DNA from: Chrysophaeum taylorii
Taxonomy: Eukaryota; Sar; Pelagophyceae; Pelagomonadales; Pelagomonadaceae
Length of the DNA stretch: 64,000 nucleotides
Reading direction: 5' to 3'
Assembly: GCA_029834535.1 (NCBI GenBank)
Contig: JAQMWT010000074.1
Coordinates: 124,001 to 188,000 of the forward strand
Shown here: piece by piece, positions 17,656 through 56,153 of the stretch
Layout of the letters: the number at the start of each line of letters is the position of its first letter
How positions within the stretch are numbered: position 1 is the stretch's first letter
Notes under the pieces: generated by a model
The model's database searches: none
What the model was told of the DNA's origin: nothing
Seen by the model: only the letters and a program-made list of their open reading frames with translations
Position numbers and translations under genes: made by a program

Positions 17656-20600
17656 ATGCTCTACTTCCTCGAGGGCCTCAAGGGACCCAAAGGGGGGGGT
17701 GACCTAGCGGAGGCTCACCGTCTTCTCGCGATTGAGTCCGCCCGGACAGGCGCCTCGTACGACACCTTCATTAAGGTCTTCACCATGTACTGCCGCAACG
17801 CCGATATCAACCGCGGTAGCTCTCGCGCACGCGCCCGCCAGACCGCCGCGCAACCTGCTGACCCGCCCGGCCGCACCACGCTCAACTACGCCTTCCGTCC
17901 GGACTGGACCCCAATCCCGTTCTGCAGCAAGTGCCACGGGCTCTATCACACCGCCCGCATATGCCCTGCCAACATCACGGGCGATATGCCGTGCGGAATC
18001 TGCCGCGTCCCCACCCACACCACCGACAACTGCGCGCTCAAGACTCCCGGCTGGCAGCCCGGAGACGTCTTCTCGATCCGCGCCCTCCGCAAGTTGAGGA
18101 CTTTCCGCTCCCGGGACTTGCCACCCGCCCGCCCGGCCGCGCCGCCCCATCCGGCACCCCCGCCGGCCCCGCAGGCACCTGAGCCTGCGCCGACCGATGC
18201 CGCGGCCGCCCGCCGCACCACCGACGCCTGTCGAACCGGTTACACCATCGGCGCGCGCGCCTTTATGGCGCGCGGCATCGAGCCACCGTTGGTCTCTCTC
18301 AGCGCCCTTCACCTGACGTTGACGTTGCTCTTCGTGGCCGCCGGGGCTTTGCTCGGTCTCTGCCTCGACGGCCGTGTTGCGCTGCCCGCTCTCCTCCTCG
18401 TCCCCGGCCTTGCATGCGTCGTCCGCACTGTCTCATTCCCGACCCTGTGCAGCACCACGGCGCGGGCAGCCCGTGCCCGCGCGGCACCACCAGACGACTA
18501 CGAGGAGTGGCTCGTCGACTCCGCCTGCGACAACCACACGCGGCCCGAGTACAGCACGGTGGTCTCCTACACGAAGACGTGGCTGTCCTGGCTCCCGGGC
18601 GGCTTCTTCGACGGTGGACGCCACAGCCACGCTGTCAGTGGACACGTCATCGAGCACGTCACGCTCCAGACTACGGACGGCCACATCGACGTCACCATCG
18701 CTGCAGCCATTACGCCCTCGCTCCCGCGGCTCTTCTCGGTCGACCAGTTCGACAAGAGCGGGGGGCGCTTCATCAGCGGGTCGCGCCCTCGCCTCGAGAC
18801 GAGCGACGGCAAGATCATCCCCCTCATCAAGCGCGGAAAGGACTACGTGCTCATCACCCGGCGCACGGGGACCGAACCGGCGACGGCCGGCCCTGCGGCC
18901 GTCACCGCCACGGCCGTCACCGCCGCGGCCCCCGCCGCGGCCCCCGCCGCCGCCGCCGCCGCTGTCGGTCGCCGGCTCGCGCCGCGCGCTGTCTATGGCT
19001 CGGCTTTCGTCTCCTCCCTCGTCGCGACCGCGGTCTTGGCCGGCGCTATGGCTGCTGCGGCGTCGAGCCATGCCGTTGGGGCGGCCATGCTGCAGCACCC
19101 GAGCGCACGGCCGGTCGACCCGGTCCTCATGCCGGGCCTCCGCCTCGACGACGTCAGCGCCCATCAGATGTTCGGCCACGCCAGCGATGATCGCCGGGAC
19201 GCCGCCCTGAAGCAGCTCGGCCTTCCCGCTGTCGGGGCAAGCCGGCACCCCATCTGCTGCACCCTCGGCCGCTTACGCAAGGCGCCCACGCATTCCAAGA
19301 CGACGAGCGCGACCACGGCACCCGACGGGGCCGTCGTTGAGGTCGACTTGCAAGGCCCCTTCAACCCGCCGACACTCGGCGGGGCGCGATATGGCCTCGA
19401 CTTCGCCTTTCGGCGCCCGGCTCGCCTGGCGAGCTCGCTCATTGCCAAGAAAAGCGACGCGGCGGGGGAGCTCCCCGTGCTTCTCGCGTCCGCGCGCGCG
19501 GCTGGACTGCACCCCACTACCCTCCGCGCGGACTTGGGGGGCGAGCTCGACAACCCGCACTTCCGTTCTACGGCAGCCGCCTCCGGCCTCGCCGTCGAGT
19601 ACGTCGTCCCCGAACGCCACGTCAACGCCGCCGAGAACGCCCACATCTGGATTCTGGACGTGGCGCGCGCCAACGACGTCATGGTCCGGAACGTGCTCCA
19701 TCCCAAATTCTGGGGCTATTCCTACCTCTACGCCGTCCGTCAGGTGAACGTCGTCGGCGGCTACATCGGCGAGCACGAGGACATTAGCGGCATGGCGCCC
19801 TACGGCTCGCTCGTTGCCTACCGCGTCGACGCCGCGAAGAACACCGCACGCGCCTTGATCGGGATATACCTAGGATGTCGGCCCGAGGCCGGTCCCGGTG
19901 CCGTCTACGTTGTTCCAGCGCCGCGATCGGGCTGCGTCCAGGACGACCTTCGCCTCGTGCGCACGACCGCGACCGTCCGCTTCCTCGCCGCACCGGGCAC
20001 GCCTGTTACGACCGACTTGCTCCGCACCACTCTCGGCAGCTTGCGTGCAGCGGCCACAGCCCCGCTCGCAGACGCCGACGCCCCGACGCCGCCACCGCCC
20101 CCACCCCCTACCTTGACCCAAGCCTGCAAGATTGCGCAGGCGTACGCGACCGCGACGTCGCCGGGCGCACCCGCCCCCGACCACGCCCCGCTACCGGGCC
20201 CGGGCTTGTTCGACGACGATCAGGACCCTGCCCTTTGGCACGAGACGCCGCCCTCGACCTTCGTCTTCGACTACAGACCCCCCGACCCGACGGCCCCCCG
20301 ATCCCTTCGGGAGGCCCGTGGCCGCCCGGACGCGCCTGGCTGGACGGCGGCCGTCCTCAAGGAACACGGCGCCTTCTTCCAATTCGAGGCCATCCGCGTT
20401 GTAGCCGCCCGTGACGTCTCTGATGACGCCGTGGTCGTCGGCTGCATTACCGCCCTCGCCGTCAAGCGCGATGGCACGCAGAAGGTTCGCTTCTGCTACG
20501 ACGGGGCTCAAGCCAAACGGACCGAGACTGCGCATGCGCTCGCCGTCCCGGAGGACCACGACGATGCGCCTTGCACCGTCACTGCGGTTTCACCCTCGTA

Positions 20601-21990
20601 CGCGTCGCCATGCGCTGACAACAATGCCGTGCTCGTCTTCGTGGCCGTCTGCAACCGCTACGGCTATGTCGCCTGCGCTGGGGACGCACGGTGCGCCTAC
20701 CTCCAATCTCACCCACTCCTGCCTCATGAGCGCCGCTACATGCGCCCGCCTCGCCACATCAGCGACTACATGGCAGACCTTCCTCCGGACCAACGCTACG
20801 ACCCGGCTCGGTCGCTGTGGCTCACGCTCAAGCCTGTCTACGGCCAGCCCCATGCGGGCCGCAAGTGGTATGAGACGCTCGTCGAGTACCTCGGCCTTCT
20901 TGGCTTCCTCGAATCGCCGGACCACCCCTGCTTCTTCTACCGCCATGAAGATACTGGGCCGCCGACGGTACTCATCAGCGTTGTCGACAACATTCCGCTC
21001 GCGGGCCAACCGGACGCCGTGGCAGAAGTGCGCGCTGCGCTCAGCGACCGTTTTGTCATGACGTGGGAAGACGTCGCTCACGACATCTGCGGCATCACCC
21101 TCGACTACCGTGCCGATGGCTCTGTCTTCGCCCACCAGCGCCCGTACATCGACAAGGTCCTCGGTCACCTCGGCTACGGCTCGATCACGGTCGGGCCTGC
21201 CACACCGATGCACCTGGACTTCAACGTCGACCCCCACGTACCCGACAAGACGGCCGACAGCGGCGACGTCCGTACCGCGCTCGCCATCAACCCACGCGAG
21301 GCCCTTGGTCTGCTCATGTTCACGCGGGCGACGTTGCCCACCTTCGCGCCCACGGTTCACGTCCTGGCCACCGCCGTAAACGTGTGGTCCAAGCGCCACG
21401 CTCGGGCCCTCGACCGTGCCCTGCGCTGGCTCGCGGCTCACCGAGACCTTGGCATCCTGTTTTCTGCTGCCTACCGAGGCGCCTTCCACCTCTCTGCTTA
21501 TGCGGACGAGAGTCTTGGCTGTGAGCTCGCTCGCGGTGCGCACGGCTCTGCCCTCTCGCGCCTCGGTGGTGCCGTTCTCCTCCAGGCCCAGGGGGCCTGC
21601 GTCTCCGGGGCCAGTCGGCGCGTCTCTGCGACATGCCACAGCACGGCGGAGATTGCCATCTTAGCCCTGTCTCACACTGTCCGTCGCCTTCTTGGAGTGC
21701 GCCACCTCATCCAGACCCTCGAAGGGGTCCGGCCGCCTCGCACCACGGTCTGGTGTGATAACCAACCGGCACTGAAGATCGTCCGTCGCCGTCTTCTGTC
21801 GCCTAACTTGCGCCATCTGCGTATCGCCCTCAATTCCCTCATTTGCGCAGTTGATACGTACGACTGTGCCTACAAGTACGTCAAGACCAAGCTCAATTAC
21901 GCCAACGTCTTCGTTTCCAACGAGGACGCTGACCTCTTCGACCGCGATACTGCCTTCCTCACCGGTCATGTCATTCCTGACCTCTCCTAG
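17656..21990 (+). CDS. pol: copia Gag C-terminus-Pol polyprotein
   Basis: 1444 codons in one frame. Two CCHC zinc knuckles (C-x2-C-x4-H-x4-C) lie at residues 90-103 and 113-126. A hydrophobic stretch at about 210-262 precedes the aspartic protease, whose motif is WLVDSACDNH with Asp288 (DSA in place of the usual DSG). A second hydrophobic stretch lies at about 445-480. A GAG-pre-integrase-like segment (HQMFGHAS) leads into integrase with Asp564, Asp626 and Glu660, matching D-D-34-E spacing. The RVT_2 domain has palm Asp1010 (GDARCAYLQ), but the YVDD box reads SVVDN (Asp1111-Asn1112). Copia RNase H follows with YADES, STAEI and WCDNQ. The true start lies upstream in gag; the ATG at 17656 is only the first in this frame. 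The two hydrophobic stretches are not normal for copia. Confidence 0.92.
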   Translation: MLYFLEGLKGPKGGGDLAEAHRLLAIESARTGASYDTFIKVFTMYCRNADINRGSSRARARQTAAQPADPPGRTTLNYAFRPDWTPIPFCSKCHGLYHTARICPANITGDMPCGICRVPTHTTDNCALKTPGWQPGDVFSIRALRKLRTFRSRDLPPARPAAPPHPAPPPAPQAPEPAPTDAAAARRTTDACRTGYTIGARAFMARGIEPPLVSLSALHLTLTLLFVAAGALLGLCLDGRVALPALLLVPGLACVVRTVSFPTLCSTTARAARARAAPPDDYEEWLVDSACDNHTRPEYSTVVSYTKTWLSWLPGGFFDGGRHSHAVSGHVIEHVTLQTTDGHIDVTIAAAITPSLPRLFSVDQFDKSGGRFISGSRPRLETSDGKIIPLIKRGKDYVLITRRTGTEPATAGPAAVTATAVTAAAPAAAPAAAAAAVGRRLAPRAVYGSAFVSSLVATAVLAGAMAAAASSHAVGAAMLQHPSARPVDPVLMPGLRLDDVSAHQMFGHASDDRRDAALKQLGLPAVGASRHPICCTLGRLRKAPTHSKTTSATTAPDGAVVEVDLQGPFNPPTLGGARYGLDFAFRRPARLASSLIAKKSDAAGELPVLLASARAAGLHPTTLRADLGGELDNPHFRSTAAASGLAVEYVVPERHVNAAENAHIWILDVARANDVMVRNVLHPKFWGYSYLYAVRQVNVVGGYIGEHEDISGMAPYGSLVAYRVDAAKNTARALIGIYLGCRPEAGPGAVYVVPAPRSGCVQDDLRLVRTTATVRFLAAPGTPVTTDLLRTTLGSLRAAATAPLADADAPTPPPPPPPTLTQACKIAQAYATATSPGAPAPDHAPLPGPGLFDDDQDPALWHETPPSTFVFDYRPPDPTAPRSLREARGRPDAPGWTAAVLKEHGAFFQFEAIRVVAARDVSDDAVVVGCITALAVKRDGTQKVRFCYDGAQAKRTETAHALAVPEDHDDAPCTVTAVSPSYASPCADNNAVLVFVAVCNRYGYVACAGDARCAYLQSHPLLPHERRYMRPPRHISDYMADLPPDQRYDPARSLWLTLKPVYGQPHAGRKWYETLVEYLGLLGFLESPDHPCFFYRHEDTGPPTVLISVVDNIPLAGQPDAVAEVRAALSDRFVMTWEDVAHDICGITLDYRADGSVFAHQRPYIDKVLGHLGYGSITVGPATPMHLDFNVDPHVPDKTADSGDVRTALAINPREALGLLMFTRATLPTFAPTVHVLATAVNVWSKRHARALDRALRWLAAHRDLGILFSAAYRGAFHLSAYADESLGCELARGAHGSALSRLGGAVLLQAQGACVSGASRRVSATCHSTAEIAILALSHTVRRLLGVRHLIQTLEGVRPPRTTVWCDNQPALKIVRRRLLSPNLRHLRIALNSLICAVDTYDCAYKYVKTKLNYANVFVSNEDADLFDRDTAFLTGHVIPDLS

Positions 21991-42440: not shown

Positions 42441-45400
42441 ACAGAGAACAAGAGACTAATGGGGCCAAAGTGGAACAAGGGAAACTACAGCGCGCGCGGA
42501 GCGCCGGAACCGGAGAAGGACGCGACGTACCCGGCGCACGCGGAGGCCTTTTGCTCGGCGGAGGCTGCGTCTGCGAAGACCTGTGTCACCGCTTGCGAGG
42601 CGAGCGGCCTCAAGACGTGCGAGTTTTGGGGCGACAGACATCAAGGCGCGGAAATGTAGTAAAGTAAGGTGCGCGATGCTCTTGCTGCCGCCGCGGCTGC
42701 TGCTGCTGCTGCTGCTGCTGGCGACGACGACGGTGCCGTGCCGACCAACCCCTCCACCCCGTCGTTGCGACCCCCCACAGCCCCAGTGGACCCACATCGA
42801 CCTAGTGACCGTGCCCCTTCGCTTTGGCTGTTGTTGTTGTGTCCGAGTAGATCGAGACTAGATAGTATTTCTGCCTCCTACGCCCCCGGGTGTTTTATGG
42901 TATCGCAGACCTGTTGAAGCCGAGCCTTGACCCGCCGAGCATCGTCCGCCCGGGCGTATTTCGTGGCCTGGGCCGCTCCGGAGTGTGTTTCGTCGTGTCT
43001 ATCGGGCGTACACCTCTTCCTGATGTACCTCGCATCCCTGGCACGAACCGAAGTAGGTGTCGTTTAGGTACGCCTCCTTTATTATTAGATTAAGTAATGT
43101 GTTCGCGGCACAAGAGCCGACGACTCTCGTTGTGCGGGGACATGGGTTTTAGAGGAGGGCATCATATATAGTTTTTCTCGAGGCACTCCGCGCAGCGTTC
43201 CCAATTTCAGTTGCTGCACCATTCGCATGGCTGGCGTCGCTACGTGATCTCGTCCTGCTGACGGCTTCGAATCTTTCGGCACCCACGAGCTGGCGTCCTC
43301 CATCCTGGACCAGTTGTTGCTGGGACGGATCCGCCTCACCGCCCACTGTCGCTGGGATTCTCCAATGCCTTCTTAGGCGACACTGCGTCACACTTCGCAA
43401 TGCGGGCCAGCGGCTAGACCAGCCTCGCGCCGCAAAGGTGCGTTGGCCGTACCGCCCAGTCCGGCGGGGGTGGCATGCTGCATCTGCGGATGTTGAGCAT
43501 GCAGATTTTGCGCTGGGTGCGCCACCCATCCCGGCGTTATTAACCAAAATGGCTGGAAGATGGGATGCACGACGGACCCTTGCGGCGTTCCACCTAGCGT
43601 CCACGCCAGGTGAACGCCTGGATACGTTGGTTCCCAGGGGTACGCCGTCGACGTCGAGCAGGTAGCAGTCGATGACGTTGTAGGCGAAGGCGTCGACGCG
43701 AGCGGGTGCGTCTGCAGCCACGGCCCAAGCGGCGGCGGCTGCGACGGCCACGCGGACTGCATCGGCAGCGGCTGCGGCTGGTGCTGCGACGCCGGGACCT
43801 GCGGCCACTGCCCCAGTGTAGGCGTCGGCTGCCACAGGTACGCCTGGTGCATCACCACCGTCTGCAGCTGCGGACCGGCTGCTGCGACGCCGGGGCCATG
43901 GCCGCAGGCCCTGGCAGCTGCGACAGCAGCGGCTGCATCGACACCGGCTGCGGCGGCTGGTGCGACGCCGGGGCCATATGGTCGCAGGCAGGCCTTGGAA
44001 GCTGCGTCCGTGGCGAAGCGTAGACCCCTCCTTACGTCATCAAGGTTTATTATGGACGCGGACGACGCGTCATCAAAGACGTCATCGAAAAGACAACAAC
44101 ACGTCTTCAAGAAAGTGACGTAAACAATCAAGTTTACTGCATGTTGTGTCCCACGTCAGTATGGGTCCGTTTGGCGACCTAAGTGAAGGTCGATGAAGCG
44201 AGAAAAATCCTCCTCCTTCTTTTGGTTTTATTACGCAATATTTTAACATGCAAGTTTATTGCCGTTATGACACCTCCCCATATCCATCGGTTGTAAAAAT
44301 GGGAACATGGCAAAAATGTTTCTTGGCAAAAAAGAAAGTTGGGAGTTGTACCAAAAATCAGCACAACCACGTAAGGAAGGAAGGAGCCTTGTGTTATTGA
44401 TTGAGCCGCAGGGGAAAAAAAAATTGTGAGGGGACTTTCGTTTGAAAACTACCCCCCAGAATCGCCAGTACGGGGGGCTCTGTGGTGAATAATAGGTAGC
44501 ACCAGGAGGCAATGTTTGTTTGTAATAGAAAGCGTGATTTTTTTTAGAGAGAGACAGGAAGACAGGCAGGCAGGTTTCCAAACGGTACGGCCGCTGTCGG
44601 TTTCTTCGGCGGTGCCGGGACAGGGGCGCGACCATAAAAAAAGACGACACGACGGTCATTCGTCGACAAGGCGGTCGCAGGACCTCCGCCGGGCGGACAA
44701 GCAAAAGCGGCTGTTGTGGCCAGAGTCGAGGCTGTTGTTGCAGGATGAATACATAGACTCGACCAGCAGCTTATTTATTTATTTATACTCGAGCGGGACC
44801 GGGGATGTCGCTTGATCTGGATCCAGCGGCGCTCGAGTGCACCAGTTTCGTAGGTACTTGCCAGGCGTGGATGTGTGGACGTCCAGCCGACGACGGCAGG
44901 CGTGTGTTGATGGGACGATGATGGGCTTTTGGACGCTGACGTTTTCGGATCATATTGGCCGAGTTGTGAGCGCGATTGTGGTGGTGGTGGTGGTGGTGGT
45001 TGGTGGTGGTAAAAGAGAACCATCGTGACACACGGTCGGTCGGTCGGTCGGTCGATCGATCGATCTGTGCGCGGCAAAAAATGAATCGAGAAGAAGAGCC
45101 AACAACGACTGTCGTTGGTCGGCCTCTTGCAACGAACGAACGAACGACAAGGAGACGGATGCGGCAAGAGGGGGCGAGTTTGTTCTGGTCGGGTGGCTCG
45201 GGACGTTCTGTCCGAGGCGTATATTTATTAGTTGTCCATCAGAGAGAGAGGCTGGCGGGCACTTGTGGTTCAACAGAAAGTAGAGCATTATTTATTCGGA
45301 CGCCCAAAACGAACGAACGAACGAACGAACGAACGAACCAAAGAAGGAACAGAAGCCTGAAGTGACGCCGGGAAGTTCCAGCAAGTTCTTCGGTTTTGAC

Positions 45401-45463
45401 CATTGTTGCCATCCGGAGAATGGTTCTTCAAGGTCGCGTCAACCAGCGGCGCCAGCACCAGAG
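42441..45463. other. Repeat-rich intergenic stretch
   Basis: Overlapping Ala/Pro-rich frames on the minus strand (43149-44131) stay open for up to 247 codons in two frames at once, which points to composition rather than coding. Simple repeats include CTG (about 42700-42720), GGT (about 44980-45010), GGTC/GATC (about 45031-45063) and AACG (about 45303-45340). AT-rich DNA at 44200-44520 has no gene. The final 100 bases hold the 5' UTR of the ankyrin gene. Confidence 0.4.
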
Positions 45464-47020
45464 ATGATGATGTGCGGCGTTCGCAAGCGGGGGAAGCAGA
45501 AATCCCGGGGTGAGGATGACGATGGTGCGCGGCGCAACTCGCGGCGCGTCCTCGCGCTCAAATTGTTGAACCGATCGATGGACGCGAACGCGCTGCGCGA
45601 TGCCCTCCACGCCGCCGTCCAGTTCGGGTTTCCCGCGTGTGCGCGCGTTTTGATCGACGAGGGCGCCGACGTCGATGCGCCGACCTTACGGAGCAGAGGG
45701 GCGACGCCACTACACGTGGGCGCGTGGCACGGTCGGGCCGAATGTTTGCGCGTTTTGATCGACGGAGGCGCCGATAGGAGCTCGAGAGACGATAACGGCG
45801 CGATGCCCCTGCATTTCGCGGCGTGGAAGGGCCGCGTCGAGTGCGCGAGACTGTTGTTGCTGGGTTCGCGCGTCGACGCGCAAACGAGAAGTGGTGGGAC
45901 GACGGCGCTTCACGCGGCATCGCGAAACGGGTACCCCGATTGCGTCCGAATTTTGGTCGAGGGGGGCGCCCAAGTCGACAAACCCCGGCGCGACGGCGCG
46001 ACGGCATTGTATCTGGCAGCTCGGAATGGCCACGCCGGGTGCGTTCGTCTTTTGATAGACGCGGGGGCGAAAAAAAAAAATCTTCCGCTGTACGCGGCGT
46101 GCGCGAACGGGAAACTAGAGTGCGTGCAACAACTGGTCTCGACCGAAAACATCCAAGAGGCGCTGCTCGTCGCGTCGAAGAACGGTCGTCTCGCGACGGC
46201 TCGATTCTTGATCGACAAGGGCGTCGACCTGCGCAATTCGCTGCACGTCGCGTGCGAGAACGGCAGACTCGCGTGCGCTCGTCTTCTGATCGACAGCGGC
46301 GCCGACGTCGAGAAACCAAGAAGTAGTTCTGGGGGGGTTACCCCCCTTCATCTTGCTTGCGAAAACGGCCACACCGCGTGCGCCCAGTTGCTTATTGATA
46401 GCAGCGCCGACGTCGAGAAACCGGATAAGTCCGGTCTCACGCCGCTTCACCTCGCTTCGAAGAAAGGTCGCTCGTCGTGTTTATTTTTGCTCATTGATTA
46501 CGGCGGCAGCTTGGTGGAGAAAGCGACGCACGACGGCTCGACGGCTCTGCATTTCGCCGTCGAAAACGGACACATCTCTTGCGCAAGGCTTTTGATCTCG
46601 AGGGGAGCCGAAGTCGACTGCGCGCGCTTTAGCGCGGGAGGACCGCTCTTCGAATCGTGCTGGGACGCAGCATCATCCGTGGAAGATGGTGTAGATCTTT
46701 CGATCGTGGGGGTGGAGGACGGCGCGACGCCCTTGCACCTCGCGTGCCTCAACGGACGCGTCGACTGCGCGACATTCTTGATCCAGCGAGGCGCCGACGT
46801 CGACAAACTCGCGGCGGGAATGACCCCGCTGCACATCGCCGCCGTGCGAGGCCACGTCGCCTGCGTGCGCTTGTTGATCGATTACGGCGCCGACGTTAAG
46901 CTCTTGCCGCGCGACATCGCAAAAACTCCACGAGTCCGACAGATGCTCCTCGAGGCCGAGGCGATGTCCGTCCTCCTATCTCGCGCGGACTGCTGGGGCT
47001 GCAAACTCCTCATCAAATAG
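45464..47020 (+). CDS. Ankyrin-repeat protein
   Basis: 518 residues made almost wholly of about 13 ankyrin repeats, each about 33 residues. The consensus resembles GATPLHLACENGHxxCAxLL, then IDxGADVDKP, with the Cys in the second helix typical of this repeat lineage. The repeats begin near residue 40 after a basic N-terminal tail (MMMCGVRKRGKQKSRGEDDD). Repeats around 200-250 (KKKNLPLYAACANGKLECVQ) are shortened. No signal peptide, membrane segment or second domain is present, so it is likely a soluble protein-interaction scaffold. The start is the first ATG in frame; the frame extends upstream only through non-ATG codons. The C-terminal tail (RDIAKTPRVRQMLLEAEAMS) is similar to the tail of the large ankyrin-STAND protein 3.6 kb downstream on the same strand (RDVAKTREITDLLLECEPLL), so the two are paralogous. 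Confidence 0.92.
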   Translation: MMMCGVRKRGKQKSRGEDDDGARRNSRRVLALKLLNRSMDANALRDALHAAVQFGFPACARVLIDEGADVDAPTLRSRGATPLHVGAWHGRAECLRVLIDGGADRSSRDDNGAMPLHFAAWKGRVECARLLLLGSRVDAQTRSGGTTALHAASRNGYPDCVRILVEGGAQVDKPRRDGATALYLAARNGHAGCVRLLIDAGAKKKNLPLYAACANGKLECVQQLVSTENIQEALLVASKNGRLATARFLIDKGVDLRNSLHVACENGRLACARLLIDSGADVEKPRSSSGGVTPLHLACENGHTACAQLLIDSSADVEKPDKSGLTPLHLASKKGRSSCLFLLIDYGGSLVEKATHDGSTALHFAVENGHISCARLLISRGAEVDCARFSAGGPLFESCWDAASSVEDGVDLSIVGVEDGATPLHLACLNGRVDCATFLIQRGADVDKLAAGMTPLHIAAVRGHVACVRLLIDYGADVKLLPRDIAKTPRVRQMLLEAEAMSVLLSRADCWGCKLLIK

Positions 47021-50642: not shown

Positions 50643-53600
50643 ATGGAAAAGGTTATCTCGAGGGAGGCGCGGAGGCTGGAGGGCAGAGCCTTCGACGTGG
50701 CACAGGCCGCGAAGAGGGCCAAGGAGGTTGCGGGGTGCGTTCGACCCGAGTTGCTGGAAGAACTTTTGGACGTTGTGAAGACGTCGTTCGCGCCGGATTT
50801 CTACTTCGAACGGCTCTGGAAGCTCCGGCGGTTCGCGGGTAGCCTGACACGACTCGACGAAAGAATTCGCGAGGACGCGGAAGGACTGGCGGACGACGAG
50901 CTCGTGCTGCGGCCGGTGCCGTACAAGCTGGAAAACGCGTTGATAAAGTTCCGCGAGGCGAACGACGACGATTCGGAAGCGATTCTCGAAGTCGCGAAAC
51001 TCGGCGGGGTGCCGCCGGACGCGTTGGAGAATTGGGGAAAAAAAAATTGGGAGGAATCGTCGTACGATGCGACCGACCTGGAGCTCGCGATCGAACGAGA
51101 AGATTCGTTGGCTGTCCGTTATTTTCTCGACGAAGCGAAATTCGTAAACGAAAGTACTACGTCTCCCGAAGTGTACGAAAAAACGAGAAATTCGCAGATT
51201 TTGGGTTTTGCGTATTTCGACGACGCCCGGCGCGTCCGGGGGCTTTTGAGGACCAAGGACGACGATGCGGTTTTCGTGGCGGCGCGACGCGGGAGCCTCG
51301 AGGTGCTGAAGTTGCTGAACAAGCGCCGCAGAGACAAGCGCGGTCAAACGCCGCTACATATCGCAGCGGCGAAAGGCCACCTCCGTGCGGTCAAATACCT
51401 GCTGGACGATGATACGTTGGATGCGCGGGACCGGTCGAACCGAACGCCGCTGATGCGCGCTGCGTCGGAAGGGTATCTGGGCGTCGTCGCGGCGTTGGCC
51501 GACGCTGGAGCGGACGCGACGAACGGCGATGCCTTGTACCTTGCGAGGTGTCGCGGTCGCACGGACGTGGTCGAGTACCTAGAGTCGCGGGGGGCCGTGT
51601 CTTCTTTTGTTTTGAAAAAGAACCACCACAACCGCGTTTCTTCTTTTCGCAGTAACGACGACGAGTCGTCTTCGGTTTTCGACTTGGACGACCGCAAAAA
51701 TACGAGTCGAGACGAAAAATTCTTGTTAAAAAAGCCGCTTATTCACGAGTTTCGAGTCGATCGGCTGCTGGCGCGCGGCGTCTGCGCGACCAAACCGCGC
51801 GCGGCCGTGAAACGATGCAAGCGGCTTCGCGATGCGTTCGCGCTCGCGACCGAACGGCTCGAACATCCGCACGTCGAATCTTTGGTCTATTTTTTTGATT
51901 CGTACATCTTCACGACGCTCATACCTTTCGCCCGGACCCTCGATTTCGTTATTTCGACCAACGACCTCTACGACGGCACGACGAGGGTTGTGAGGGCGCG
52001 AATTTCTAAGCTTATGGTCCAAATCCGCGGAGCGGTCGAATATTGCGTTTCGAGGTCCGTTTTTCCAAACCTCGCGAAAATTCTTATCAACGCGAAGACG
52101 TTCGCCCCTTTCCTCTCTCGATTCGACGGCGAGAACAACGCGTGGCGGCGCCAGTTCGGGAATCTCGCCCGTCGTATTTTTCACGCGGACGACGAAACAT
52201 TCGTCGTCGGAGCCGAAGGGTTCGAGGAATCGCCCGAACCGCGATGGACGCGGAAAGAAGTCGCTGCCTACCTAAAACGGAACGGCATCACGAAATACCG
52301 GAACATCGACGGCTCCGGGTTGTTCCGGATCCACCCGAACTCCCTTCCCCCCTCAAAATTCCGCCGAATGCTCTTATCTCCGGCTCCCGACCTCCTGGCC
52401 TCGCTCGTTTTTTTCGAGTCGGAGGAGGACCGAAAAAACAATCCTCCTCCTCCTCACGAGTGCCTCGTGCACGTGGGGAGGTCGCTATTGGAGCAAGGAG
52501 ATATCGACTACGCGATCCGAGCTCTCGAGAGAATTCGCGAACGTACGGCCGAATCTCTCGCCCTCCTCGCGTCGGCTTACCTGCGGTTTGGCGACTACGA
52601 AGCGGCGGCGAGATCGGCGGAAGAGTCTCTGGATATCGACCCTTCGCACCTCGGGGCGCTATTCTTGAGGGCCGCAGCCTACGACGATTTTTATTCGGAC
52701 GTTTTTTTCGCGCATCGTCAACTCAACCCGCCGCCGGATATGTCATCTTCCAGCAGCAGCAGCAGCAGCAGAATCGTCGTGCGGCGGCGCGTCGAGGTCA
52801 GCAGGCACAAAGCTACTGCTGCTGCTCCCGAGGTCGTGGCGAAGATCTTGGGGGAAGATGCTGGCCGGAAAATCGTTCTCGAAGGCCTCGCCGGCGCGGG
52901 CAAGACGAGGCTCCTGCGTTCGATCGCGAACGCCATTTCCCAAGACTGCGACGTTTCGGATTACTTTGAGGAGGATGATGACGACGAAGAAGAAGAAGGA
53001 GGCTCGTCGTCGTCGTCAAAACTCAAACCCTTCCTCGCTTCGCTCGCCGCGACGACGCTTCTCGCGCTACCAGAAAACGTGGAAAGGACAGTGTTGTGTC
53101 TCGACGATTGGGACCGCGCGGACCACAACAACAACAAGATCCTCCTCGAAACAATAGCGACCGCACCGTCGGCCGCGACGATCGTGGCCTCGAGGCCCTG
53201 CTCGAACGCCGAAGTCTTCGCCGAGCACGGTTTCGTCTTTCTCCAAGTAGTGGCGCTCGAAGAAGAAGAAGAACCAGAAGAAGAAGAAGAAGAGGAGGAG
53301 GAGAATCGCAATAAAAAGGACGTCATCTTCGAGCCCGCGGTCGAGTCTCTGCCGGAGAATATCGACGAAATTCTAGAATCTTTGGCGGTTTCTGCTTTTT
53401 CGAAAGGCCGCGTTCTCGTGGAAAAAGAAGATTTGCTACAACTTCTCGACGACGACCAAGAAGAAGAAGGAGAATCTACCGCCGCCTCGATCTGGTGCCT
53501 CGGACGGTCCAACAATCTCCCCCCCCTCGAACCTCTCGGAGCCGATGCGATCGGATTTCGGGCTCTCGCGCAGGAAAAATACGTGGCGAAAAAATTAGCC

Positions 53601-56153
53601 GCCGTCGTCGACGAAGAAAAAGTAAACGATTCGTGGTGGCGCGCGCCTTTGCTGCTCGCCTTTTTCGCCAGCACTAAAGAGAAGAAATCAAAGATCCTCG
53701 ACACCATCGCGTCGCAGATTCCGCGGCTCCGGATTGGGGATCAAATTGAGGTGTTGTTTTCGAATTACGAACCGCGAACCGTAGTCTCGCTCCACGCGCT
53801 CAACGTTAGGGGCGAAGTCGGGGTCATGAACCGCAGGACCCTCGCCGCGAGAGAGACGGTGAACATCCAATCCGTGCGCCGCGACCTCGACGGCGCCGCA
53901 GCGTTCGTGAGATACGCGATCGCTCACGACTCATCATCGACAGAAATCGTGGACGGCTTGCTGTCGCGAAACGTCGACCTCAACACGCCCGTCGACCCTC
54001 GGACCAAAGACTCCGCGTTGCACGTCGCATCGCGTTTCGGAAGGTCCGAGATTGCGAAGGCATTGGTTCGAAAAGGGGCCTCGATTTCGGGGTTGAACAT
54101 GTTCGGGAAATCGCCCGCGGCGCTCGGCGGAAAAGATTTGTTGAGGGTCTTTCGACCTCCGAAATGCGATCTCGACCTCGAAGGTATCAAAATCATAAAT
54201 TTCGACGACCACAACGGTCGATTGTACGCGTTCGCGAGGGCCTGCGATAATCTCGAATTCGAAAAAGCCGCTGAGATCGCGGAGACGATAGACGTAAACG
54301 GTCATTTTCCCGGAAGCGACAGCACGCCAGTGCATTTCGCCGTCGTGAACTCGTGCGAAAAAGCTCTAGAAGTTCTAATACGACGCGGCAAGGCCAGGAT
54401 AGACAAGAGAACAGCGCTAGATCTGGCCGCGCGCTTCAACAGGACCCAAATTCTCGAAATTTTGATGGATAGATTCTTCGAATCTTTGACGAAAGATATG
54501 TTGGGCGCGGCGATGCACCCGGCGGCGAGGTTTGGCTTTTTAGAATCGTTGGAACTTCTGGCCGAACGCGGCGCCACCATGGACGTGGCGGTGGTGGCCG
54601 AAAAGAACTCGTCTACCTCCTCCACCCCCCTGCACGCGGCGTCGTGGCACGGCCATTACGATTGCGTGGATTTTTTGATTCGAAAAGGAGCGGACGCGAG
54701 CAAGACGATGAAGGGGTCGACCCCCCTCCACCTCGCAACCTGGAACGGCCACCTCGACTGCGCCGAACTCTTGATCCTCAACGGCGCCGACGTCTCCGCC
54801 TCTACGTCCAACACGCCTCTGCACGTGGCAGCCTGGCACGGTCACGTCGACTGCCTGGAGCTTCTGATAAGCCGAGGCGCGGCCGTCGACGCGCAGACGG
54901 CAGACAAAGGGTCGACGCCGTTGCACGCGGCAGCGGGCCGGGGTCACCTCGAATGCGCGAGATTCCTGGTTCTAAAAGGCGGCGCTAAAGTCAACAAATC
55001 CCGGCGCGACGGAGCGACGCCGCTCTTCGCGGCCGCGCGCCACGGTCACCTCGAATGCGTCCGCTTTTTGGTCCAAAGCGGTGCCAAAGTGGCAGTCAAA
55101 AGCAACAACACGACGTCGTCTTCGTCTTCTTCTTCTTCTTCTTCTTCTTCCCCGCTGGCTGCCGCGGCGCTCAACGGCCACTCCGCCTGCGTCGAGTTCC
55201 TGATCTCTCCCGGGACTACTACTTCTTCGTATGCTTCTTCTTCTGTTTCTGGAATGAAAGACGCGCTCCTGCACGCGGCCAAGAATGGTCACCAGGAGTG
55301 CGTGAAGCTTCTGGCCGCCATCACCGACGTCAACGCATCAACCTCGAACGGCACCGTCCCCTTACATCTCGCTGCCAAACACGGTCAGGCCGAGTGCGTC
55401 TCGCTGTTGCTCTCCAAGGGTGCCAAGGTCGACGCTCGGCGAAAAAATGGCACGACGGCCCTTCACCTCGCTTCGGAGAACGGCAGCCTCGACTGTGTCC
55501 GTCGACTCGTGGAAAGAGGCGCCGACGTCGACAAACCCACCGTCGACGTCGGAGCGACGCCGCTCCATCTCGCCAGCGAGCACGGTCATATCGACTGCGT
55601 CCAATTCCTCGTCGGCGCCGACAACAACCCCGCGGACGTCGTGGCAAAACAACTTTCTGCGCGTCGAAGTGTCCTCAAAACCGCTGCTCTAGACGACGAC
55701 GACGACCTGGTCCAGCTGTTTGTGGAGAACGGCGCCGACGTCAACAAATCGAGGACGGATAACGGATCTACGCCTCTGCATCTCGCCGCCGCGAACGGCC
55801 ACGTCGAATGCATGCGAATTCTAATCGACCGCGGCGCCGACGTCAGCAAACCAAAAACCGACGGCGCCACTCCGCTCCACCTCTCTGCCCAAAGAGGAAG
55901 CGTCGCTGGAGTTAAACTCCTAATCCGCCACGGCGCGAACGTCGTGGCACAAACTAACCAACACTACACGCCGCGGGACGTCGCGAAGACTCGCGAAATA
56001 ACGGACCTGCTCCTCGAGTGCGAACCTCTCCTCTCTTGCTGTCGCTTCTCCGCTCTGGTCGTCCTCCCCCGCGACCACTGGCGCCGCTTGAGTCGTTCAA
56101 CAATGTCCCGGTACTGGAGCATATCCCTGCAGCACGCTCGCCCGGTCAGATAG
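50643..56153 (+). CDS. NLR-like STAND NTPase with ankyrin, pseudokinase, SAM-like and TPR segments
   Basis: 1836 residues in one intact frame. In order:
- helical N-terminus (1-200)
- ankyrin repeats (about 209-320)
- kinase-fold segment (about 365-515): AAVKR at 387-391, LEHPHVESLVYFF at 406-418, and VFPNLAKILI in place of the HRD catalytic loop
- SAM-like segment (533-580, WTRKEVAAYLKRNGI...IDGSGL)
- TPR-like helices (605-685)
- P-loop NTPase: Walker A GLAGAGKT at 748-755, Walker B VLCLDDWD at 817-824, sensor-like IVASRP at 847-852
- winged-helix-like region (905-990)
- about 18 ankyrin repeats (1120-1810)
Acidic and Ser runs from simple repeats separate the domains. This order fits signal-transduction ATPases of the STAND class, which switch by nucleotide-dependent oligomerisation. 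A role in pathogen or stress sensing is inference. No membrane segment or signal peptide is present, so it should be cytosolic. Its C-terminal tail matches the 45.5-kb ankyrin gene. Confidence 0.9.
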   Translation: MEKVISREARRLEGRAFDVAQAAKRAKEVAGCVRPELLEELLDVVKTSFAPDFYFERLWKLRRFAGSLTRLDERIREDAEGLADDELVLRPVPYKLENALIKFREANDDDSEAILEVAKLGGVPPDALENWGKKNWEESSYDATDLELAIEREDSLAVRYFLDEAKFVNESTTSPEVYEKTRNSQILGFAYFDDARRVRGLLRTKDDDAVFVAARRGSLEVLKLLNKRRRDKRGQTPLHIAAAKGHLRAVKYLLDDDTLDARDRSNRTPLMRAASEGYLGVVAALADAGADATNGDALYLARCRGRTDVVEYLESRGAVSSFVLKKNHHNRVSSFRSNDDESSSVFDLDDRKNTSRDEKFLLKKPLIHEFRVDRLLARGVCATKPRAAVKRCKRLRDAFALATERLEHPHVESLVYFFDSYIFTTLIPFARTLDFVISTNDLYDGTTRVVRARISKLMVQIRGAVEYCVSRSVFPNLAKILINAKTFAPFLSRFDGENNAWRRQFGNLARRIFHADDETFVVGAEGFEESPEPRWTRKEVAAYLKRNGITKYRNIDGSGLFRIHPNSLPPSKFRRMLLSPAPDLLASLVFFESEEDRKNNPPPPHECLVHVGRSLLEQGDIDYAIRALERIRERTAESLALLASAYLRFGDYEAAARSAEESLDIDPSHLGALFLRAAAYDDFYSDVFFAHRQLNPPPDMSSSSSSSSSRIVVRRRVEVSRHKATAAAPEVVAKILGEDAGRKIVLEGLAGAGKTRLLRSIANAISQDCDVSDYFEEDDDDEEEEGGSSSSSKLKPFLASLAATTLLALPENVERTVLCLDDWDRADHNNNKILLETIATAPSAATIVASRPCSNAEVFAEHGFVFLQVVALEEEEEPEEEEEEEEENRNKKDVIFEPAVESLPENIDEILESLAVSAFSKGRVLVEKEDLLQLLDDDQEEEGESTAASIWCLGRSNNLPPLEPLGADAIGFRALAQEKYVAKKLAAVVDEEKVNDSWWRAPLLLAFFASTKEKKSKILDTIASQIPRLRIGDQIEVLFSNYEPRTVVSLHALNVRGEVGVMNRRTLAARETVNIQSVRRDLDGAAAFVRYAIAHDSSSTEIVDGLLSRNVDLNTPVDPRTKDSALHVASRFGRSEIAKALVRKGASISGLNMFGKSPAALGGKDLLRVFRPPKCDLDLEGIKIINFDDHNGRLYAFARACDNLEFEKAAEIAETIDVNGHFPGSDSTPVHFAVVNSCEKALEVLIRRGKARIDKRTALDLAARFNRTQILEILMDRFFESLTKDMLGAAMHPAARFGFLESLELLAERGATMDVAVVAEKNSSTSSTPLHAASWHGHYDCVDFLIRKGADASKTMKGSTPLHLATWNGHLDCAELLILNGADVSASTSNTPLHVAAWHGHVDCLELLISRGAAVDAQTADKGSTPLHAAAGRGHLECARFLVLKGGAKVNKSRRDGATPLFAAARHGHLECVRFLVQSGAKVAVKSNNTTSSSSSSSSSSSSPLAAAALNGHSACVEFLISPGTTTSSYASSSVSGMKDALLHAAKNGHQECVKLLAAITDVNASTSNGTVPLHLAAKHGQAECVSLLLSKGAKVDARRKNGTTALHLASENGSLDCVRRLVERGADVDKPTVDVGATPLHLASEHGHIDCVQFLVGADNNPADVVAKQLSARRSVLKTAALDDDDDLVQLFVENGADVNKSRTDNGSTPLHLAAANGHVECMRILIDRGADVSKPKTDGATPLHLSAQRGSVAGVKLLIRHGANVVAQTNQHYTPRDVAKTREITDLLLECEPLLSCCRFSALVVLPRDHWRRLSRSTMSRYWSISLQHARPVR

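Follow-up and report, generated by a model that had tools for sequence, protein, structure and literature searches.

A divergent gene of a predicted NACHT-ankyrin protein family with an MLKL-like N-terminal bundle in the alga Chrysophaeum taylorii

We analysed a window of 64,000 nucleotides from the pelagophyte Chrysophaeum taylorii (assembly GCA_029834535.1, contig JAQMWT010000074.1, positions 124,001 to 188,000 of the forward strand), and within it a single gene at 50643..56153 (+). The assembly comprises 70.8 Mb in 697 contigs; the contig that holds the window is called C74 here, and paralogs are named after the contigs of this assembly on which they lie (C27, C309 and so on). The gene is a single ATG-started open reading frame (ORF) of 1836 amino acids with zero internal stops. 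Alignment places it, as a divergent copy, in a family of giant proteins, and sequence profiles and predicted structures give this family the plan MLKL_N - ANK - kinase - TPR - NACHT - ANK. The features of the gene, in window positions, are as follows.

50643..56153 (+): whole gene, 1836 codons, one open frame (ORF; family collinearity)
50643..50987 (+): remnant of an MLKL-like helix bundle, residues 1-115 (alignment, paralog model, tblastn)
51090..51602 (+): first ankyrin array, residues 150-320 (Pfam Ank_2, 3.7e-34 for residues 1-364)
51735..52442 (+): degenerate pseudokinase, residues 365-600 (alignment with paralog kinases)
52242..52382 (+): SAM-like helical piece inserted into the kinase C-lobe, approximately residues 534-580 (weak profile matches; SAM identity unproven)
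52458..52682 (+): TPR helices, residues 606-680 (Pfam TPR_2, 4.9e-8, over cut-off)
52884..52907 (+): Walker A GLAGAGKT of the predicted NACHT NTPase (sequence, family alignment)
53091..53114 (+): Walker B VLCLDDWD, mostly LCLDGLDE in paralogs (sequence, family alignment)
53181..53198 (+): sensor-like IVASRP, mostly TSRP in paralogs (family alignment)
53259..53293 (+): GAA-repeat acidic run at the paralogs' presumed HD1 stretch, position inferred (tandem repeat, alignment)
53361..53708 (+): winged-helix and HD2 region, residues 907-1022, with FRALAQEKYVA against paralog FHLTFQEYYVA (alignment; structure of paralog C309)
53712..53894 (+): small conserved beta domain, residues 1024-1084, between HD2 and the second array (strands in paralog model)
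53949..56042 (+): second, long ankyrin array (Pfam)
56034..56045 (+): C-tail SCCR, in place of the two-cysteine tail of several paralogs (C-terminus alignment)

The initial annotation had described one uninterrupted frame of 1836 codons, and this is borne out. The frame spans 1838 codons from stop to stop, and an upstream extension would therefore be possible only via an unseen exon. When 300 random sequences of matching length and first-order base composition were read in all six frames, their longest open run was 264 codons on average and 451 at most, so chance does not explain a frame of this length. The paralog on C27, itself a single frame of 2699 amino acids, matches residues 36-318, 367-869 and 906-1483 with the order kept, which argues against an artefact joining two genes. 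As for an upstream exon that might carry the lost start of the N-terminal bundle, tblastn with three paralog N-termini against the window, run without an intron-aware search, turned up no convincing match upstream of the ATG. Scanned against Rfam and for tRNAs, the window had no matches.

When the whole protein is used as a query, paralogs are found on many contigs. Querying the genome with the NACHT portion of paralog C309 yields at least 15 family loci (C309, C529, C324, C207, C538, C27, C534, C73, C358, C366, C437, C551, C74, C90 and C489, with C74 being the gene described here), a number that is a lower bound. The NACHT match lies inside a single open frame at nine of these loci, with frame lengths of 3406 (C309), 3144 (C538), 3017 (C324), 2699 (C27), 2444 (C437), 2339 (C73), 2157 (C529), 1838 (C74) and 1685 (C489) amino acids, while six of the 15 are frameshifted, stopped or fragmentary. 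On C366 a frame of 1691 amino acids is present, yet the NACHT match is spread over several frames, and on C529 a stop codon separates the first ankyrin array from the kinase.

An N-terminal helix bundle, absent from the initial domain list, is present in the family. Pfam MLKL_N is over its cut-off in C309, with 28.9 bits against a cut-off of 27 (29.5 bits in the whole-genome search); the six other family N-termini scanned, among them those of C529, with a sub-threshold match, and of the C74 copy, do not reach the cut-off. MLKL is the best, still tentative, fold match for the predicted structure of a paralog bundle, and profile scans of paralogs also show MLKL_N/RPW8 similarity. The N-terminus of the C74 copy matches that of C529 by tblastn (E 1.6e-16). 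Its first residue corresponds to residue 49 in the model of the paralog, so that it lacks the extra helix 11-36 and the beginning of helix 41-59, and it has further deletions.

The kinase-fold segment of the initial annotation holds up for the family, as evidenced by Pfam kinase matches in all six paralog segments scanned (C309 2.8e-28, C324 3.7e-28, C538 6.1e-28, C529 1.1e-27, C437 1.5e-22, C73 2.4e-18), with which the C74 segment is collinear. The C74 segment alone, however, has neither a Pfam kinase nor a SAM match and is better described as a degenerate pseudokinase. It lacks the motifs of an active kinase (HxD, catalytic Lys/Asn, DFG): FPN replaces HxD, and both DFG and the glycine loop are missing. 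HQD, DVKLEN and DFG are intact in three of 10 aligned copies (C324, C534 and C529), and the others have changed at least one of them. A helical piece is present where a SAM-like segment had been proposed, though within the kinase C-lobe and with a SAM identity that is not established (best E 0.11). Since the kinase match extends beyond this piece, to profile position 255-258 of 263, in all six paralogs but C73, we regard it as an insertion in the C-lobe. SAM_3 matches weakly in two of four paralog segments (E 0.11 and 0.21), and an eight-row profile of the stretch finds the SARM1 SAM (E 0.19), Liprin-beta-1 and Shank2 weakly, at E 0.19 to 1, and PIM-2 kinase beyond the insertion at E 0.88.

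The TPR-like helices and the P-loop NTPase were both read correctly at the outset: TPR_2 passes its cut-off for the segment, and the three motifs GLAGAGKT, VLCLDDWD and IVASRP are all present. On its own, the P-loop segment of the C74 copy matches NACHT (3.6e-5) and AAA_16 (1.7e-5), both under curated cut-offs. In the whole-genome search the NACHT cut-off is passed by C27, C324, C534 and C489, and by C309, C538 and C73 with neighbours in frame; direct scans of C309 and C529 fall under it. The NACHT segment was modelled on paralog C309 (five AlphaFold2 models; best predicted local distance difference test score (pLDDT) 80.1, the rest 74.9 to 59.4), and the model matches NLRP3, NLRC4 and NOD2 up to and including the winged helix and HD2, with NLRP2 and NLRP7 also among the fold matches. 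The predicted order of HD1, winged helix and HD2 after the nucleotide-binding domain (NBD) supports the STAND/NLR-type interpretation offered earlier, and in particular the winged helix and HD2 supply the STAND-like extension expected after the P-loop. On the strength of this model the NTPase is a NACHT module. An NB-ARC label was considered and set aside, as a single NB-ARC match occurs in the whole genome and NACHT is the better label. Walker A has lost its Ser/Thr (GK[ST] to GKG) in seven of 10 aligned family copies in which the remaining NACHT module is conserved; the C74 copy keeps the canonical motif.

Ankyrin repeats on both sides of the NTPase, as first claimed, are confirmed by Pfam Ank_2 (3.3e-131 for the whole protein). 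By sequence comparison, the units of the second array are old in the C74 copy and nearly identical in some paralogs, with 101 of 325 unit pairs in C529 and 32 of 190 in C309 at 90% DNA identity or more, against none of 28 in the C74 copy. Five positions per unit, taken from designed ankyrin libraries, are presumed here to contact ligand. The nonsynonymous change per site (pN) is higher at these positions than elsewhere (0.28 vs 0.09 in C529, 0.30 vs 0.09 in C309, 0.27 vs 0.08 in C534), with P values from 0.0076 to 0.16 that fall below 0.05 in six of 10 arrays; units were chosen by likeness to the C529 consensus, which biases them towards young units. A count of changed codons had given a strong excess at the contacts (P <0.05 in nine of 10 arrays), which the per-site count weakens; the latter leaves out two C366 frames of the codon count (one overlapping a further C366 frame, the other lying next to it upstream) and adds the C74 protein and its neighbour. 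pN exceeds the synonymous value (pS) at contacts in three of 10 arrays, and the pooled pN/pS of 0.79 at contacts, against 0.55 elsewhere, may thus reflect a relaxation of constraint and not positive selection. A study of NLR alleles in Podospora mentions high internal conservation in its title (PMC12222747). The small beta domain before the second array gave no Pfam row, and its best match to PDB sequences has an E value of only 0.11. Beyond the array, a related tail with two close cysteines (e.g., GCWC) is present in eight of 15 C-termini (13 paralog frames, the C74 protein and its neighbour); as a guess, these cysteines might serve lipid attachment.

We propose, with a probability of about 55%, that the family members are NLR receptors of the NACHT type with a built-in cell-death executioner, and that the C74 copy most likely serves the intact copies as a regulator, decoy or partner without executing function of its own. 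Membership and anatomy come from alignments and models; an immune function, and the steps of ligand sensing, oligomerisation, gating and membrane attack, would follow by analogy with MLKL, HeLo and NLR precedents. In intact relatives, the C-terminal ankyrin array would sense a ligand, and binding would release the NACHT module (NBD, winged helix and HD2), which would then switch and oligomerise, with the TPR and first ankyrin segments holding the chain together. The kinase or pseudokinase would gate the response and, with clustering, expose the N-terminal MLKL-like bundles, which would attack a membrane. In the C74 copy the P-loop is still canonical, and the winged-helix/HD2 region is retained along with both ankyrin arrays; the bundle start, the HD1 stretch and the kinase motifs are gone, and these losses are what suggest a non-executing role. 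Probably, to judge from its sequence, it cannot execute alone.

In animals, the roles of sensor, switch, kinase and executioner fall to different proteins, namely NLRs, RIP kinases and MLKL. A more tentative extension is that the algal family amounts to a single-chain necroptosome with specialised copies, in which ankyrin sensor, NACHT ATP switch, kinase and MLKL-type executioner share one polypeptide. Most copies have the bundle, a recognisable kinase and a Walker A without Ser/Thr, whereas in the C74 copy the P-loop is canonical, the kinase dead and the bundle truncated. The two types could thus conceivably work as a helper-sensor pair. We hold this extension as a whole to be doubtful.

The alternative that survives best, though we consider it unlikely, is a large scaffold or signalling protein of ankyrin and NACHT modules that takes no part in immunity or death, in which the bundle docks or dimerises and the kinase regulates an ordinary process. 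Ankyrin, TPR and kinase modules are generally known to be common in scaffolds, and NLR-fold proteins outside immunity exist, such as NLRP2 and NLRP7 of oocyte complexes, which appear among our fold matches. The MLKL_N/RPW8 similarity, however, fits receptor families better, as do the family's spread over at least 15 loci, of which six are broken or fragmentary, and the near-identical ankyrin units with changes concentrated at the presumed contacts.

It is still less probable that the C74 copy is a pseudogene in an NLR family, in the course of decay and with a frame that is open by chance. The lost bundle start, kinase motifs and HD1 stretch would agree with decay, and so would the broken loci elsewhere in the family. 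In all eight stretches compared, C27 and C73 also have a higher identity to five reference paralogs than it has, and C437, itself without most of the bundle, does so in seven of the eight. Over the same stretches, however, it is roughly level with C489 in closeness to the reference paralogs, with mixed outcomes, and its Walker A is canonical. A tree groups it with C489, with weak support and both on long branches; its own branch, of 2.02 changes per column, suggests a long time without a stop, and 1836 codons are far beyond the longest run in our 300 simulations. For five paralog pairs and three domains, the ratio of nonsynonymous to synonymous divergence (dN/dS) is 0.22 to 0.59 (15 values). 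In three pairs with the C74 copy the eight ratios obtained are 0.14 to 0.56, with dS of 1.58 to 5.13 in eight of nine values and one beyond computing, divergences at which recent constraint on this copy cannot be judged. An RNase L/IRE1-like protein, in which N-terminal ankyrin repeats and a pseudokinase control a nuclease, is most improbable: the first half resembles RNase L in its ankyrin - pseudokinase order, but TPR and NACHT come after the kinase instead, and Pfam gives no KEN nuclease at E <=10 in segments 2 and 3 of the C74 protein or at E <=1 in four paralog segments.

The nearest described systems are fungal NLRs of the type HeLo-like - T-NACHT - ankyrin, which share an N-terminal MLKL-superfamily bundle, a central NACHT and C-terminal ankyrin repeats (PMC12258605, PMC9815663). 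T-NACHT NLRs with HeLo-like domains, and others with ankyrin repeats, are described as frequent in Sordariales, where some NLRs also have kinase domains (PMC12258605). The family described here differs in its algal host, in its size (most open frames 2157-3406 amino acids) and in the ankyrin array, full kinase with helical insertion and TPR added between bundle and NACHT. Among plants, kinase-NLRs such as Tsn1 (PMC11218826) likewise have a kinase N-terminal to the nucleotide switch; these carry NB-ARC and LRR (leucine-rich repeats) where the algal family has NACHT and ankyrin, plus the bundle. Candidate immune receptors of chlorophyll a/c algae, as cited in PMC11378527, combine NB-ARC with TPR, in contrast to the NACHT-ankyrin design here. 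The animal proteins NLRP3, NLRC4 and NOD2 share the order NBD - HD1 - winged helix - HD2 with the predicted paralog structure; the algal family has ankyrin for the LRR sensor, an MLKL-like bundle for PYD/CARD, and the altered Walker A in most aligned copies. MLKL itself, as is predicted for the algal chains, joins a four-helix executioner domain to a (pseudo)kinase, but it lacks NACHT, TPR and ankyrin parts and depends on a second kinase for activation.

The domain combination had been called unfamiliar from described families. In titles and abstract starts of the open-licence literature, we found among the matches listed neither a protein of the plan MLKL/HeLo - ankyrin - kinase - NACHT - ankyrin nor a NACHT NLR of a chlorophyll a/c alga. 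If the proposal is true, it would place NLR-type, MLKL-like cell death in a chlorophyll a/c alga, with a bearing on algal resistance to viruses or parasites and on the age of MLKL-type executioners. With MLKL-like bundle, kinase and NACHT in one chain, a mechanism that leads from sensor to executioner could be tested on a single gene. The arrays of near-identical ankyrin units, whose changes concentrate at presumed contact positions, would offer a testable route of receptor diversification.

Elsewhere in the genome, nine of the 16 NACHT matches lie outside the family. In one gene (L027, C396, 266-4000) WD40 repeats come after an NPHP3_N-type NACHT, an order similar to that in some fungal NLRs, and another (L026, C391), a 3022-amino-acid frame, encodes a NACHT/NB-ARC STAND protein (NACHT 2.7e-9) whose preceding stretch is CHAT-protease-like by eye, without a Pfam CHAT row. 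MLKL_N also occurs on kinases without NACHT, at L024 (C565, 670-1992, 7.7e-18) and L025 (C25, 3-4501, 5.5e-17); the latter has a kinase and 14 armadillo stretches over two overlapping frames, with a weak EF-hand before MLKL_N. The genome thus holds a broader set of STAND and MLKL-like genes. The first frames of L024 and L025 both stop at the same kinase motif, which hints at introns in genes of this genome. At L012 (C324, 1-2151), leucine-rich repeats (LRR_6 3.3e-6) lie upstream of the first ankyrin array, in the usual place of the bundle. Outside this genome, the NACHT alignment found two weak loci among 124 pattern-matched stretches of bacterial genome contigs (29% identity, E 1e-5; 26% identity, E 3e-5) and none among 41 of viral contigs, in scans that used two short patterns each and could miss relatives.

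About 4 kb upstream of the gene lies a further ORF:

45362..47020 (+): ankyrin-only ORF, 552 amino acids (family C-tail type; 44% identical to the second array)

To judge from its sequence, this neighbour probably derives from the C-terminal part of the family by partial duplication. Farther upstream, an ORF of 1444 amino acids at 17656-21990 (+) has a sub-threshold RVT_2 match (6.5e-5) and is likely a copia-type retroelement. Finally, contigs C25 and C521 carry MLKL_N and light-harvesting gene matches at nearly equal coordinates, which suggests that both haplotypes may be present in the assembly. Matches to the chlorophyll-binding family number 84 in this genome, and its light-harvesting genes point to a chlorophyll a/c alga. 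Among solved structures, one light-harvesting protein matches a chain named FCP6 and FCP10 best, then light-harvesting/fucoxanthin chlorophyll a/c chains, and a second matches LHCI chains best, then light-harvesting and FCPI chains.
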